A stretch of DNA of 64,000 nt from contig NZ_CP046120.1 in NCBI RefSeq assembly GCF_009707465.1, positions 62,001-126,000 of the forward strand. The letters are read 5' to 3'. Below, in pieces: positions 2,672-55,209 of the stretch; position 1 is the first letter of the stretch, and each line of letters begins with the position of its first letter. The position numbers were made by a program, and so were the translations under genes. The notes below the pieces were generated by a model that saw nothing but the letters and a program-made list of their open reading frames with translations, searched no databases and was not told the DNA's origin. The stretch comes from Novosphingobium sp. Gsoil 351. Lineage in GTDB: Bacteria > Pseudomonadota > Alphaproteobacteria > Sphingomonadales > Sphingomonadaceae.

Positions 2672-3321
2672 CGCGGCACGCGCTTCGGGTCGAACCACAC
2701 CAGCCTTGCGCCGTGGACGAGGAAGGCGGCGAGCGCGCTTGGGATAGCCCACAGCGCGAGTTCGAGCGGAGCAAGCTGATATCCATCGGCGGCCAGCACC
2801 TGCTGGATCAGCACGATCGAGCCGATCGCGAAGAAGATGTCCTCACCGAAGAACAGCCCGACGTTGTCGGTCGCCGCGGCCATCGCCTTGATCCTCTCGG
2901 CCTGCGCGGGCGCCGGATCGCCTGCCGCGGCGAGCGCCATCGGCGCAACGAGCGGGCGCACGGTTTGCGCGTGGCCCGCGGTCGAATGCAGGCCGACCGC
3001 CGCGGTGAGCTGACGATAGGCCAGGTAGAGCAACAGCAGCCGTCCGGTGGTCGCGCTCCTGAACCCGCGGATCAGGTCGGCCGCGCGCTGCTGCAGGCCA
3101 AAGCGTTCGAGTAGCCCGATCACCGGCAGCACCACCCAGACAATGGCGATGATCCGGTTGTCGTTGAACGCCTTGCCGAACGCGGCAACGACGTCGACCG
3201 GGGTCATCCCGGCGAGCAGCCCGGTGGCAAGGCCTGAGGCGACCACCACCAGCATCGGGTTGAGCCGCAGCGCAAAGCCGAGGACGACGATCGGAATGCC
3301 GAGCAGGGGCAGCCAGCTCAT
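2668..3321 (-). CDS. DUF969 family membrane protein (putative permease subunit)
   Basis: 217-aa membrane protein beginning [20 protein letters not shown], with several hydrophobic segments and the conserved core [19 protein letters not shown] followed by [19 protein letters not shown]. These are hallmarks of DUF969. It is translationally coupled on both sides: its ATG overlaps the 5-oxoprolinase stop by 4 bp, and its stop overlaps the DUF979 ATG. It is probably the partner of DUF979 in one inner-membrane transporter. The transport role and substrate are inferred from gene context only. Confidence 0.9.
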
Positions 3322-6300
3322 CCCGCCACGCCCCACCCGCCGCCACCTGGGGTCTCGATTACGAACACGTCGCCGGCTTTCATGTTGGTCGAGGCGGTCG
3401 CGGGCAATCTCTCGCTCGACCCATCGACTCGCTCGACCCAATTCCGGCCCGGCGCGGCGTCGCCTCCGCCACATAGGCCGCGCGGCGGCACCTTCCGGCG
3501 ATTGGCCAGGATTTGTGCCTGCATCGGCTCGAGAAAGCGCACCCGCCGCACCACCCCGTCGCCGCCCCGGTGCAGCCCGGCGCCGCCCGATCCGCACCTA
3601 ATGGCGAATTCCTCGATGCGCACGGGCAGCCGGGTCTCGAGCACTTCGGGGTCAGTTAGGCGGCTGTTGGTCATGTGGGTCTGCACCGCGTCGGTCCCGT
3701 CATGGTCCGGCCCCGCGCCCGAACCGCCGCAGACCGTCTCGTAATATTGATGCTCGGCGTTGCCGAAGGTGAAATTGTTCATCGTCCCCTGGCTTGGCGC
3801 GAGCCGGCCTGTCGCGGCGAACAGCGCGTCGGTGACCACCTGGCTGGTCTCGACATTGCCCGCGACGACCGCGGCAGGCCATGCGGGAGACAGCATCAGG
3901 CCATCCCGAAGCACGATTTCGATTGGGCGCAGGCAGCCATCGTTCAGTGGAATCGTGTCGTCGATCAGCGTCCGGACGACATAGAGCGCGGCGGCGCGAA
4001 CGATCGCACGCGGGGCATTGAAGTTGTCGGTGAGCTGGGCGGAGGTGCCGGTGAAGTCGAATGTGGCGGCGCGCGCCTGCTTGTCGATCCGAATAGAAAC
4101 AGAGACTTGTGCGCCATTATCCATCGCATAGGTGAACTTGCCATCGTCGAGCCGCCCAAGCAGCCGCCGCACCGACTCGTCGGCGTTGGCGAGGACATGG
4201 CGCATATACGCCGCGACCACCTCCCCGCCGTAGTCGCGCGCCACCGAAGTCAACGCCTCGACCCCCCTGGTGCACGCGGCGAGTTGGGCGCGCAGATCGG
4301 AAAGGTTGCGGTCAGGACTGCGCGCCGGGTGCGGGCCAGAGGCCAGCAAAGCGCGGATTTCAGCCTCTCGGAAACGGCCTTCATCGACCAGCAGGACATT
4401 GTCGATGAGCACGCCCTCGTCATGGATGGAGCGGCTGGCGGGCGGCATCGAGCCAGGGGCGATTCCGCCGATGTCGGCGTGATGCCCACGCGCGGCGACG
4501 AAGGCGTCCGGCGTAGCGGATTCATCGTAGAACACCGGGACGATCACCGTGATGTCGGGCAGGTGGGTACCCCCCGCGTAAGGATCGTTGAGGACATAGG
4601 CATCGCCGCGCCGGATACCGCGACCGTCGGCATCATTTCCACGAGTTCTAAGAATCGTGCGAATGCTTTCTCCCATCGAGCCGAGGTGTACAGGGATGTG
4701 TGGCGCGTTGGCGATCAGCGCGCCTTCGCCGTCGAACAGTGCGCAGGAGAAATCGAGCCGTTCCTTGATGTTGACCGAGGTCGCGGTCGCCCGAAGCGCC
4801 TCGCCCATGTCTTCCGCGATCGCCATGAACAGGTTGTTGAAGATCTCCAATTGGACCGGATCGGCGGCGGTGCCGATGGCGTGGGTCCGCTCGAGCGGCG
4901 CGGTGCGGGTGAGGACCAGCGTTCCGTCGCCGGCGCGCCGCGCCTGCCAGCCGGGATCGACGACGATGGTCGAGGTGGGCTCGAAAATCAGTGCTGGGCC
5001 TGCCAATACCTCCCCGGCATGAGGAAGGGGACCGCCCGAAGCGTGGTGGTGGGGTTCAACAGTGGCGCATGACCCCTCGACCGCTCGCTGCGCAGGCGGT
5101 TCCCCTTCCCGTGCCGGGGAGGTACTCGCGGCCTCGACGATAAGCGTATCGACGATAGGTTCCTCCGCCGCCGCATAGCCAAAGCGGCGGCGGTGGAGAT
5201 CGGTGAAGCGTTCGCTCAGCGTCCCGCTCGGTTCGATCGCCAGCTCGAGCGTGCTGTCGCTGCCTGTCAGCCGCAGCCTGGCGCGGCGATCGATGATGAT
5301 CTTGGACAGGCCCTGCTCGCGCAAAGCCACGGCCGCAGCCTCTTCGAGCGTTGCCAGCGCCTCGCGGAAATCGTCGCTCAAAGGCCGCAACCAACTACGC
5401 TCGCGGATCGCCTTGACCGGCGCCAGGCCGATCCCGTGCGCCGACAGGACGCCCGCCAGCGGATGGATCAGGATTCGCTCGATCCCCAGCGCATCGGCCA
5501 CCGCGCATGCGTGCTGGCCGCCGGCACCGCCGAAGCAGGCAAGGGTGTAGCGGGTGACGTCATGGCCTCGCGCGATCGAGATCTTTCGGATCGCGTTGGC
5601 CATGTTGTCGACCGCGATCCGCAGAAATCCGCGGGCGACGGCTTTGGCGTCCATTCCGCAGGCCGCGGCGATCGCGTCCAGCCGGGCACGCGCGGCGTCC
5701 GGGTCGAGCGCGGCGTTGCCGTCCGAGCCGAACACCTGGGGGAAGCGCGCAGGCTCGATCCGCCCCAGGACGACGTTGCAATCGGTCACCGTCAGTGGCC
5801 CGCCGCGCCCGTAGCAGGCGGGGCCGGGATCGGCGCCCGCGCTCTCGGGGCCGACCCGAAAGCGCATGCCGTCGAAGCGACAGACCGAACCACCTCCTGC
5901 CGCCACGGTGTGGATCTGCATCATCGGGGCGCGCAGGCGGACCCCGGCGACGGTGCTTTCGTCGGCCCGTTCGATCGCGCCGGCATAGTGCGAAACGTCG
6001 GTCGAGGTGCCGCCCATGTCGAACCCGATCAGGCGGACGGCCTCGCGCGGAGCGAAGTGCGGCGAGGACGCCGTGATCATCCCGACCACGCCACCCGCCG
6101 GTCCCGACAGGACCGCATCTTTTCCTCGAAAAGCAGTGGCTTCGGCGAGGCCGCCGTTGGATTGCATGAAGTGGAGCGAGGTCTCCGGCGCCAGTCCGCC
6201 ACGGACCCGCTCGACATAGCGCCGCAGCACCGGCGAGAGGTAGGCGTCGACCACGGTGGTGTCGCCGCGCGGGATCAGCTTGATCAGCGGCGCGACCTCG

Positions 6301-6860
6301 TGGCTGACCGATATTTGCGCGAAGCCGATTTCGCGGGCGATGGCCGCCACCTGCTCTTCATGGTGCGGATAGCGCCAGCCGTGCACCAGAACGACGGCCA
6401 GCGCGTCGTAGCCGAAGTTTCGCAGGCGTGTCAGCCGCTCGCGGGTAGACGTCAGGTCGAGAGGTCGGACGAGTGCGCCGTCGGCACCGCGCCGCTCATC
6501 GATTTCGACCACCGTTTCATAGAGTTGTTCGGGCAATACGATGTGCCGGGCGAAGATGTCGGGCCGCGCCTGGGTACCGATCCGTAGGGCATCGCCGAAG
6601 CCCTGGGTGATCGCCAGCGCGCACTGCTCGCCCTTGCGTTCGAGCAGCGCGTTAGTGGCGACGGTGGTCCCCATCCACACCGCACCGAGCGTGCCGCCGT
6701 GCGTGGCGAGGACCCGGGCGATGCCTTCGAGCGCGGCGTCGGCGTATTGGCCCGGCGCTTCGGACAGCAGCTTGAGCACCTGTTCGCCGCCGTCCACGGT
6801 ACGTGCGACGATATCGGTGAAGGTCCCGCCGCGGTCTATCGCGAAATTCCAGATGGTCAG
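3318..6860 (-). CDS. 5-oxoprolinase / hydantoinase A-B fusion protein, probable CTG start
   Basis: ATP-dependent cytosolic enzyme that opens 5-oxoproline to glutamate (OPLAH type). It is a single 1180-aa fusion of a HyuA-like half (roughly residues 1-620) and a HyuB-like half (roughly 640-1170). The N-terminal phosphate loop reads [12 protein letters not shown], and a second nucleotide motif [12 protein letters not shown] lies near residue 280. The HyuB half has [17 protein letters not shown] and [12 protein letters not shown] and ends [13 protein letters not shown] at 6797 would delete [10 protein letters not shown]. The only upstream in-frame candidate is CTG at 6860, 4 bp after the sixA stop and preceded by GGTGGA. 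The linker between the halves is encoded by a palindromic repeat (5007-5124). A related hydantoinase activity is possible, but the fused layout favours 5-oxoprolinase. Confidence 0.9.
5007..5124. repeat. palindromic repeat element embedded in the 5-oxoprolinase coding region
   Basis: Two 30-nt arms, 5007-5036 and 5095-5124, are near-perfect inverted copies. The left arm begins TACCTCCCCGGCATGAGGAA and the right arm ends CGTGCCGGGGAGGTA. They flank a 58-nt core. Elements with CTCCCCGGCACGGGGAGG ends are common between genes in sphingomonads (family knowledge, not searched here). This one is read through in frame and encodes part of residues around 578-620, including REGEPPAQ and [16 protein letters not shown]. 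This stretch occupies the linker that normally joins the HyuA and HyuB halves. Confidence 0.8.
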
Positions 6861-26537: not shown

Positions 26538-27443
26538 TCAAAGCTTGGCGTAATGCGCCAGCTGGCGCTGAAATGCGCGGTCGGCCTGGGCGGCGTCGTA
26601 TGAGGGCGAGTCCGCCACGGTCCAGCCGTGGTTGGCCGGGTAGACCTCGATCTCGCAGCTCCGCCCGGCCGCGTCGCACGCCTCGCGCAGCGTGGTCTTG
26701 GCGCCGGGTTCGCGTGCGTCGTCGTTCTGGGCGATCGCGATCAGCAGCGCGGCGCGGGTCGCGGCGATCAGCCGGTGCGGGCTGTCGGGCGCGTCGGTGA
26801 CCAGACCGCCGCCGTGCATCGAGGCGGCGACACCGATCCGATCGGGCGCAGCCGCCGCGGTGCGGATCGTTGCGCCGCCGGTCATGCAATGGCCTACGGT
26901 GCCGATCTTGCGCCTGCTGTCCACTTGCGGCTGCCTATCGAGCCAGGCGACGAACGCCTTGCCGTCGCTGGCGTAGGTCGCGGGGCTGAGCGCCTTGCCC
27001 ATCGGCGCGACCGCGGCGCGGACCGCGGGGTCGGTGAAGCTCGCGCCGGTGGGCAGCACCGGGGCCTTCGCGCTGCGGTAATAGTGGTTGACGACCAGAG
27101 CGGCGTAACCCGCGCGAGCGAGGTCGCGCGCCTTGTCCTTGAAGCTGTCTCGCAAACCGAGGATATCCGGCCAGACCAGCACCGCCGCATGGCCGCCCTT
27201 GGCGGGATAGGCGAAGAAGGCGTCGGCGGCGCCATCGGGGGTGGGAATTGTGACCGCCCGCTCGGCGATCGCCAGGCCGGACGGCGTTGGCGTGGGTGCC
27301 GCGTTCGGATCGTTGGACGCCATGCATCCCGCAAGCGCGCCGCCCGCCGCCAGTCCTGCCGCGCCCAGCCCGAAACCGCGCCGCGATACGCGCCGCATCG
27401 CCTGCCATTCGGCATCGTCGGCCAGGGTGAAATCATCGCACAT
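26538..27443 (-). CDS. dienelactone hydrolase family protein with Tat lipoprotein signal
   Basis: 301-aa alpha/beta hydrolase of the dienelactone hydrolase family. The nucleophile is Cys in [13 protein letters not shown], the acid is probably the Asp of [11 protein letters not shown], and the His is in [11 protein letters not shown]. The N-terminus carries a twin-arginine signal ([17 protein letters not shown]) ending in a lipobox-like ALAGC, so it may be exported folded and then lipid-anchored. ATG 27443 has AGGAGA upstream. It stands alone, divergent from the formaldehyde dehydrogenase gene and convergent with the TonB receptor gene. The substrate is unknown. Confidence 0.9.
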
Positions 27444-27591
27444 AACGGCGCGTCTCCTGTCGGTTACGCCCCTCCCGCGGCGGGTTGTAACGGACCCCAT
27501 GGAAGGCGCAAGCAGCGCGCTTGACGCACGGCCCCAGGCTGGGCCAAGCGATCTGCCTTTCCTTGGGAACAACCAGCAGGGAGACCCCCCG

Positions 27592-28704
27592 ATGAAGACC
27601 CGCGCCGCCGTCGCATTCGCCGCCAAGCAGCCGCTGGAGATCGTCGAACTAGACCTCGACGGCCCGAAGGCGGGCGAAGTGCTGGTCGAGATCATGGCGA
27701 CGGGGATTTGCCACACCGACGCCTACACCTTGGATGGGCTGGACAGTGAAGGCCTGTTCCCCAGCGTGCTCGGCCACGAGGGGGCGGGGATCGTCCGCGA
27801 GGTCGGGGCAGGGGTGACCAGCGTCAAGCCGGGCGACCACGTGATCCCGCTTTACACCCCCGAATGCCGCCAGTGTAAGTCGTGCCTTTCGGGCAAGACC
27901 AACCTGTGCACCGCGATCCGCGCGACCCAGGGCAAGGGGCTGATGCCCGACGGAACCAGCCGCTTCAGCTACAAGGGCGAGACGATCTTCCACTACATGG
28001 GCTGTTCGACCTTCAGCAATTTCACCGTGCTGCCCGAGATCGCGGTCGCGAAGATCCGCCAGGACGCCCCGTTCAAGACCAGCTGCTACATCGGCTGCGG
28101 GGTGACCACCGGGGTCGGCGCGGTGGTCAACACCGCCAAGGTCCAGGTCGGCGACAATGTCGTGGTGTTCGGGCTCGGCGGGATCGGGCTCAACGTGATC
28201 CAGGGTGCGCGGCTCGCGGGGGCGGGGCGCATCGTCGGGGTCGACATCAATCCCGAGCGCGAGGCTTGGGGCCGCCAGTTCGGGATGACCGACTTCCTCA
28301 ACAGCAAGGGCATGAGCCGCGACGAGACGGTGGCGGCGATCGTCGCGCTGACCGATGGCGGGGCCGACTACACCTTCGACGCCACCGGCAACACCGAGGT
28401 CATGCGCACCGCGCTCGAGGCGTGCCACCGCGGCTGGGGCACGAGCATCATTATCGGCGTGGCCGAAGCGGGCAAGGAGATCGCCACCCGGCCGTTCCAG
28501 CTCGTCACCGGGCGCAACTGGCGCGGGACCGCGTTCGGCGGCGCGAAAGGCCGCACCGACGTGCCGAAGATCGTCGACTGGTACATGGAGGGCAAGATCG
28601 CGATCGACCCGATGATTACCCACGTGCTCACCCTCGAGGAAATCAACAAAGGCTTCGATCTGATGCACTCGGGCGAGAGCATCCGCAGCGTGGTGGTCTA
28701 TTGA
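27592..28704 (+). CDS. frmA: S-(hydroxymethyl)glutathione dehydrogenase / class III alcohol dehydrogenase
   Basis: 370-aa zinc-dependent medium-chain dehydrogenase that oxidises S-hydroxymethylglutathione in formaldehyde detoxification and also acts as S-nitrosoglutathione reductase. Catalytic zinc ligands are in [10 protein letters not shown] and LGHEGAGIV. Structural zinc cysteines are in [18 protein letters not shown]. The NAD loop is [39 protein letters not shown] is diagnostic of class III enzymes. AGGGAGA precedes the ATG. The usual partner, S-formylglutathione hydrolase, is not adjacent; a VOC protein gene follows 52 bp downstream. Confidence 0.96.
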
Positions 28705-32157: not shown

Positions 32158-32263
32158 ACCCGTCGCCCCTGTGAAGACCGGGGCCCAACCAGGTTCTCCA
32201 TCTGCGACGACGGTGCCGGAATGAGAGTCCGGTTGGGTCGCGGCCTTCGCCGGGGCGACGGGT
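32158..32263. repeat. 106-bp intergenic inverted-repeat element between eda and ppc
   Basis: The 33-nt arms at 32158-32190 (begins ACCCGTCGCCCCTGTGAAGA) and 32231-32263 (ends CGCCGGGGCGACGGGT) are inverted copies with a few mismatches, around a 40-nt core. It can fold as one long hairpin and fills most of the 149-bp gap. It resembles dispersed intergenic palindromes of sphingomonads, but its copy number cannot be judged from this window. Confidence 0.7.
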
Positions 32264-55108: not shown

Positions 55109-55122
55109 TCCTTCCCACCGAG

Positions 55123-55185
55123 CGCTGATGTCGAGCGAAATCGAGACACCTGCGCAGCACGCCTCGACTTCGCTCGACATCAGCG
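55123..55185. repeat. inverted repeat between the acetyltransferase gene and tesB
   Basis: The 23-nt arms CGCTGATGTCGAGCGAAATC... (55123-55145) and ...TTCGCTCGACATCAGCG (55163-55185) pair with one mismatch around a 17-nt loop, starting 14 bp after the acetyltransferase stop. There is no T run, so it is not a standard terminator. GTCGAGCGAA-type palindromes recur between genes in sphingomonads. Confidence 0.65.
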
Positions 55186-55209
55186 GATGTGGTTTCTAAT
55201 TGCCTGGGC

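Follow-up and report, generated by a model that had tools for sequence, protein, structure and literature searches.

Sphingomonads have a dispersed, REP/BIME-like head-to-head palindrome, and a copy of it lies in frame inside a conserved 5-oxoprolinase/hydantoinase (OPLAH-like) gene in the 64-kb stretch of DNA analysed here (hereafter the window). The reading that we prefer, at a probability of about 0.72, is that this REP-like dimer, when translated, gives the enzyme a disordered linker joining its two halves, and that the linker has been a permissive docking site across the lineage, overwritten from each genome's own stock of REP families, with gene conversion as the most likely means.

The palindrome within the OPLAH-like gene

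The gene, its domains and the element are located in the window as follows.

3318..6797, minus strand: 5-oxoprolinase/hydantoinase (OPLAH-like) gene, from the open frame and Pfam; the start is uncertain, a GTG giving 1159 aa and the database copy having 1180 aa
5409..6269, minus strand: Hydantoinase_A domain (Pfam), residues 177-463 of the 1159-aa frame
3330..4862, minus strand: Hydantoinase_B domain (Pfam), residues 646-1156 of the 1159-aa frame
5007..5124, read on the minus strand as 39 residues: REP/BIME-like palindromic element (head-to-head dimer), from the inverted repeat, fold, homologous copies and peptide
5007..5036: left arm as drawn in the initial annotation, with the end TACCTCCCCGG
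5095..5124: right arm as drawn in the initial annotation, with the end CCGGGGAGGTA

A repeat search placed the arms at 5002-5036 and 5095-5129, each 35 nt long, 80% complementary and spaced by 58 nt, and an ungapped count gave five mismatches between the 30-nt arms 5007-5036 and 5095-5124, in agreement with their initial description as inverted copies with few mismatches. Folded as RNA, 5000-5130 has a minimum free energy of -87.5 kcal/mol, whereas shuffled sequences averaged -56.3 (z = -7.2), and none of 200 shuffles folded as well. The inverted-repeat score of the element was 17.5, well above most of the 532 segments of 240 nt across the 64 kb (median 8.25, 99th percentile 13.3), with higher scores at two places (near 32.2 kb and 55.1 kb). 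The 25-nt arm pattern, allowing up to three mismatches, was matched twice in the window, both times inside the element (expected number 0.00). Copies of the family end in (T/A)CCTCCCC...GGGGAGG(A/T). Rfam returned MIR1437 and mir-1178 far below their gathering scores, and these were taken as chance hits on a long hairpin.

Two further inverted repeats were observed in the window. That at 32160-32260 has a score of 21.0, above that of the element studied here, carries GTCGCCCC and GGGGCGAC near its ends, and looks like a different palindromic repeat; that at 55118-55187 (CGCTGATGTCGAGCGAA.. / ..TTCGCTCGACATCAGCG) has a score of 20.5.

The OPLAH-like frame comprises 1198 aa from stop to stop and 1159 aa from the GTG start. 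The open frame of 1180 aa described initially is that of the database copy (P0001), with the minus strand of the gene now added. Pfam analysis revealed Hydant_A_N, Hydantoinase_A and Hydantoinase_B domains, the nucleotide coordinates of the latter two being worked out from the 1159-aa frame. The element encodes residues 580-618 of P0001, equivalent to 559-597 of the 1159-aa frame, between Hydantoinase_A and Hydantoinase_B, which bears out its proposed role as the segment joining the HyuA-like and HyuB-like halves. Three of the six reading frames across the element contain a stop, and the frame in use is open. GC content by codon position is 0.85/0.64/0.62 in the element and 0.71/0.51/0.81 in the remainder of the gene, as expected for a sequence that has not evolved as part of the OPLAH-like gene.

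An AlphaFold model of the protein has a mean pLDDT of 88.3, and its sole segment of at least three residues under 50, residues 586-609, falls within the element peptide; an earlier structure model (A2, 27 close sequences; mean pLDDT 53) was set aside. Comparison with the orthologue in genome G184 gave dN of 0.095, dS of 0.75 and dN/dS of about 0.13, with similar values for the first and second halves of the codons, and by this measure the OPLAH-like gene is under purifying selection. Judging from the open frame and the selection on the gene, the element is probably translated, as a linker predicted to be disordered between the HyuA-like and HyuB-like halves.

Dispersed copies and other host proteins

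A search of the 3.82-Mb genome of the window with the element returned 23 match rows at E<=10 and five at E<=1e-3; two of these five are the element itself, on both strands, and the other three fall at two further places. The copy at 2079579-2079694 is 73% identical over about 115 nt (54.5 bits), and the second place, 1764991-1765045, gives a shorter match; both are head-to-head dimers on reading, and the genome has three full places, 5007-5124 included. Matches at E<=1e-3 were present in 17 of 61 genomes (own included), all of the window's genus, and half-copies of about 46-52 nt matched on their own. Using the linker of locus L108 (MAG contig JACDCV010000053.1) as the query, matches were obtained in all six chosen genomes, with 7 to 57 rows each, a tally that covers both strands and the locus of the query itself. 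In each of genomes G219, G220, G221 and G019 the match rows number 26 to 57, the two strands being tallied separately. The element is present elsewhere in its own genome and in other genomes of this sphingomonad genus, and the case that it occurs nowhere else, considered in the initial annotation, falls away. A chance or assembly origin of the symmetry has a close to negligible probability, with homologous copies in many genomes, 0 matches in shuffles and nothing in its favour.

Host genes were surveyed in 42 loci holding 38 elements of at least 80 nt, hand-picked as the best and longest matches; nine of the 38 are in-frame parts of conserved genes, flanked on either side by native sequence, and a tenth probably is too, proportions that describe this non-random selection and not a genomic fraction. 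The Pfam scan covered 20 ORFs. The host proteins are listed below.

OPLAH (L247, L265): element in frame
ImuB-like protein with IMS and DUF6504 domains (L248, L254): element in frame, Pfam domains on both sides
Methylmalonyl-CoA mutase (L249): element in frame between the mutase and B12 domains
TruB (L253, L268): element in frame between the N and C domains
ABC-F protein (L258): element in frame, Pfam domains on both sides
MurD-like protein (L260): element in frame, seems to split the N-terminal domain

In the MurD-like protein, the Pfam N-terminal domain is found only from its position 47, directly after the element, and we read the part preceding the element as native. The frame in which the element is read goes by gene: SSP in OPLAH; PPR in the ImuB-like protein, the mutase and the ABC-F protein; and LLP-type in TruB and the MurD-like protein. 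It is constant for TruB and for the ImuB-like protein, in two species each.

The 2.08-Mb copy in the window's own genome (L024:2072-2234, approximately G000:C1 2079571-2079733, outside the window) is in frame in an ORF with an Smr domain, and probably forms part of the Smr-domain protein; its translation is less sure, because the database copy of this gene (P0140, 122 aa) starts after the element. Homologues of the Smr-domain protein carry repeat-like peptides of several kinds in the same linker. Among 120 rows (17 without the N-terminus), repeat-like peptide patterns were found in 53 and 9 of the 103 with an N-terminus, by a heuristic that uses the peptide only; the 41 with neither pattern mix some repeat-derived-looking linkers with many plain-looking ones.

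Linker states and repeat families among OPLAH relatives

Linkers were cut from 150 aligned OPLAH rows (database proteins and genomic loci), 12 of which were assigned by hand, for example P0120 as plain. REP-like linkers, including a few half or degraded elements, were found in 104 of the 150 rows, plain linkers of about 21 residues in 20, and longer non-REP linkers in 26. Near-duplicates are present among these rows (for example L107/L300, L108/L301 and P0052/L292), and a second count, leaving out rows at least 97% alike outside the linker, gave 92 REP-like, 18 plain and 26 longer non-REP linkers of 136. The REP linkers are mostly 38-55 residues long, and most keep only a few non-REP residues beside the element.

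The closest genome relative found, G184, is 85% identical in protein and has a short plain linker with no palindrome, so homologues that lack the element do exist and do not all share an equally long, unrelated linker. OPLAH of the Sphingomonas type, at about 61% identity, has a canonical linker with '..VPLYLREGLAEGF.ADGP'. The initial proposal that the element replaces the canonical linker holds for the sequence as it stands. The strand before GPALI is also missing in the plain linkers of about 21 residues (20 of 150 rows), and its absence is therefore not attributable to the element alone. A check for target-site duplication revealed terminal repeats, G184 as the nearest plain genome relative being too distant for a nucleotide-level reading.

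Dimer linkers were read at the DNA level in ten cases (the window, L107, L108, L117, L217, L292, L293, L294, L295 and L299), and the reading frame of the element is identical in all ten (S-S/T-S-P...). Eight of them have inverted-repeat scores of 17.5-26.5; L294 (12.0) and L299 (10.5) are REP-like by sequence, yet fall within or close to the range of linkers that lack a dimer (6.5-11.0). A half element was seen at the DNA level in L296, and P0088, P0093, P0095 and P0110 have monomer or degraded copies by peptide, those of P0095 and P0110 being halved. The repeat-bearing linker of L117 (Sphingomonas deserti) keeps a canonical-like 'QRDGLAAGDTVRGPALII' end.

Several further observations were made on these rows. 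The OPLAH of L293 (G654:C163) has two repeat matches, 27585-27682 and 26997-27104, together with an in-frame TAG stop. In both P0052 and P0074 the loop that follows 'VIVPVFY' (alignment A1, approximately columns 815-850) holds a further repeat-like insert, and P0074 has another at its C-terminus. P0037, a sphingomonad-like OPLAH, comes from a 668-kb contig of a MAG labelled 'Bacillota bacterium', a label that is probably wrong for this bin.

At the DNA level the hairpin heads vary among relatives, examples being CCTCCCCGGAACGGGGAGG, CCTCCCCGGCGGTTGCCGGGGAGG, CCTCCCCGAGCTTGCTCGGGGAGG and CCTCCCCCGCAGGGGGAGG. Eight head classes were set by regular expression, with most assignments made from the peptides of metagenomic proteins. 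Trees were built with FastTree, leaving out fragments shorter than 1000 aa in the first tree and, later, shorter than 1100 aa (database proteins) or 1000 aa (loci), as well as L035 and L046 (unreadable) and six late loci. Loci L029, L038 and L040, whose translations appear to come from the wrong strand, were not used. In the first tree, 38 of 123 inner forks had support under 80. The minimum number of head-family changes, counted irrespective of support, was 38 both for the 104 REP rows and for the 92 that are non-redundant; leaving out the looser classes gave 30 for the remaining 79 rows. On an earlier tree with 96 REP rows, 37 changes were needed, compared with a mean of 43.4 and a minimum of 38 after shuffling, so the head classes keep just a weak trace of ancestry. 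In a tree-independent comparison, both members fell into the same class in 13 of 13 pairs at >=95% identity and in 46% of the 28 pairs at 90-95%; pairs that are 91-92% identical outside the linker have different classes.

The linkers of four genomes were then compared with the repeats of the same genome and with orthologous linkers. For L292 (a 100% match to P0052 of S. lutea), the best other copy in its own genome scored 130 bits and the best listed orthologous linker 59 bits, orthologues beyond the matches listed scoring at most about 43 bits. The best donor candidate for L292 lies about 2.4 kb downstream, and G655 has a counterpart at the same place, though its OPLAH linker is of another family. 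For L299 the own-genome copy scored 105 bits and orthologues at most 53.6. The L108 linker gave 123 bits with the orthologous linker of G219, above the 110 bits of its best own-genome copy, and the L217 linker (G491) had no other copy in its own genome at E<=1e-4, its best match being an orthologous linker (76 bits). Two of the four genomes thus favour replacement from their own repeat pool, one favours inheritance by a small margin, and one, which has no pool, looks inherited. The window element, outside these four, scored 54.5 bits with its best own-genome copy and 50.9 bits with the L108 linker. Given L108, L217 and this weak own-genome likeness, conversion is not universal, and for the window itself it is a candidate mechanism.

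Parsimony on the presence and absence of the element in a clade of 135 rows gave a minimum of 16 changes with a REP-free ancestor, and a single gain needs 18 losses. Presence and absence appear compatible with a single ancestral gain and with repeated gains alike, and parsimony does not favour one gain.

Origin of the linker repeats and relation to known systems

In the mechanism that we propose, a REP-like dimer would have entered the OPLAH linker in frame. A disordered linker, with the HyuA and HyuB halves folding on either side of it, would have tolerated the insertion, which is presumably neutral for the enzyme. Many descendants would then have kept an element at the site while its sequence was replaced again and again by resident REPs of other families, most probably when repeats recombined with one another (gene conversion). 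At times the element would have been halved (L296; P0095 and P0110 by peptide), cut to a plain linker, or lost. The common frame and place could alternatively stem from site-specific reinsertion.

Different REP families may instead have inserted independently at the same nucleotide of the OPLAH linker, carried by a mobilising enzyme with a target preference, with only the in-frame, stop-free insertions surviving and old copies decaying to plain linkers. A search for Y1 transposases in six genomes found none in G219 or G220 and five Y1_Tnp loci in the other four, none flanked by a significant match to the element (best E 0.008 over 20 nt). This argues against such a hotspot, as do the few non-REP residues left beside the element in most REP linkers and the shared frame of the ten DNA-level dimers, which would require nucleotide-exact targeting. 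The REP-free ancestor with 16 changes obtained by parsimony for the 135-row clade would fit independent insertion, and so would the L117 element, whose linker has retained its canonical-like second half, and the existence of monomers and degraded copies (L296; P0088, P0093, P0095 and P0110 by peptide); we regard this explanation as possible but doubtful. The Y1 transposase gene of the window's own genome adjoins a perfect 28-nt inverted repeat, ATAGCCAGTATCCTCGGGAAAGTGAGAC, that is unlike the element (L287:1883-1955, approximately G000:C1:1290103-1290175), and L288 has a like arrangement of a Y1 gene and an inverted repeat.

It is improbable that the linkers are neutral relics of one ancient in-frame REP insertion, inherited and drifting, with the family differences produced by divergence and misclassification: the DNA heads differ in kind, beyond substitutions, and for L292 and L299 the copies within their own genomes score far above orthologues. 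The G491 element, with no other copy in its own genome and an orthologue as its best match, is what a relic would look like, as are the L108 linker, where the orthologue outscores the own-genome copy, and the window itself, where the family has nearly gone from the genome and the arms have diverged (80%). A useful mRNA hairpin or peptide, for example one that slows translation between the halves or sets subunit geometry, would account for how often the site is occupied (104 of 150 rows), the very stable fold and the 38-55 residues of most REP linkers. With peptide and hairpin heads that change freely, close relatives that have plain linkers of about 21 residues, and a window palindrome that is eroding, such recruitment seems very improbable. 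Extending the preferred reading, a docking site overwritten by resident REPs, to other proteins, we would put at even odds that the linkers of several of them (OPLAH, Smr-domain, probably TruB and ImuB-like) are, in a clade of sphingomonads, long-lived REP docks under concerted evolution, rewritten time and again from the genome's non-coding repeats, where the peptide would track the resident repeat family and not ancestry.

The CCTC-like ends of the element may be set beside the GTAG and CGTC tags of known REPs; the ends (T/A)CCTCCCC...GGGGAGG(A/T) appear unlike the CGTC consensus. E. lithoralis and S. alaskensis, which appear below, are taken here as sphingomonads. Intragenic GTAG/CGTC REPs and REP dimers encode tens of residues in conserved genes (Di Nocera et al. 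2013, PMC3733652). Sections of the same source place CGTC REPs in S. wittichii and S. chlorophenolicum, REPs in the tRNA pseudouridine synthase B (TruB) genes of S. maltophilia, E. lithoralis and S. alaskensis, and different REPs at about the same site of recB in X. campestris and X. oryzae, and these sections make no mention of OPLAH (PMC3733652). REPINs and BIMEs are described, in part of a further source, as two inverted REPs forming one unit with many copies per genome (PMC3116915). The element resembles REPs and BIMEs in its short palindromic stem-loop units, head-to-head dimers and multiple copies per genome, the window's genome having only its three full places. It differs from REPINs in that no RAYT (Y1 transposase) gene is flanked by the element family and in that it often lies in coding frames. 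REPs and BIMEs are mainly extragenic, and among the 38 hand-picked best matches the in-frame elements number nine, a tenth probably, the remaining 28 being partly classified. Terminal inverted repeats, a MITE-like trait, are present. Higgins et al. reportedly asked in 1988 whether REPs evolve by gene conversion; the proposed recipient here is a protein-coding linker.

Rickettsia palindromic elements (RPEs), as presented in sections of two sources, are palindromes of about 105-146 bp, in several families, that occur between genes and in frame in protein genes (PMC2229807, PMC3733652). The parallel with them drawn initially is sustained by a dispersed sphingomonad palindrome in frame in conserved ORFs, with further copies outside genes. 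Unlike the RPEs, the elements described here have sphingomonad hosts, are likened to them by behaviour and not by sequence, and have been followed at one site over 150 rows with a changing family. In a search of the open-access literature, no listed title or abstract described a REP-like element within 5-oxoprolinase/hydantoinase, or REP family turnover at a coding site. Intragenic REPs and RPEs have been described before; what appears to be new is a coding site that REPs occupy while their family turns over fast.

Translated repeats will mislead alignments and domain annotation, and stretches rich in S, P, G and R in sphingomonad proteins may be translated repeats. More than 100 OPLAH sequences form a natural series, with empty, filled, halved and swapped states, of a conserved enzyme that owes part of its chain to a selfish or neutral DNA repeat. 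Two old questions become testable with this series, namely whether REPs move and evolve by insertion or by gene conversion, and how non-coding repeats give rise to new segments of proteins.
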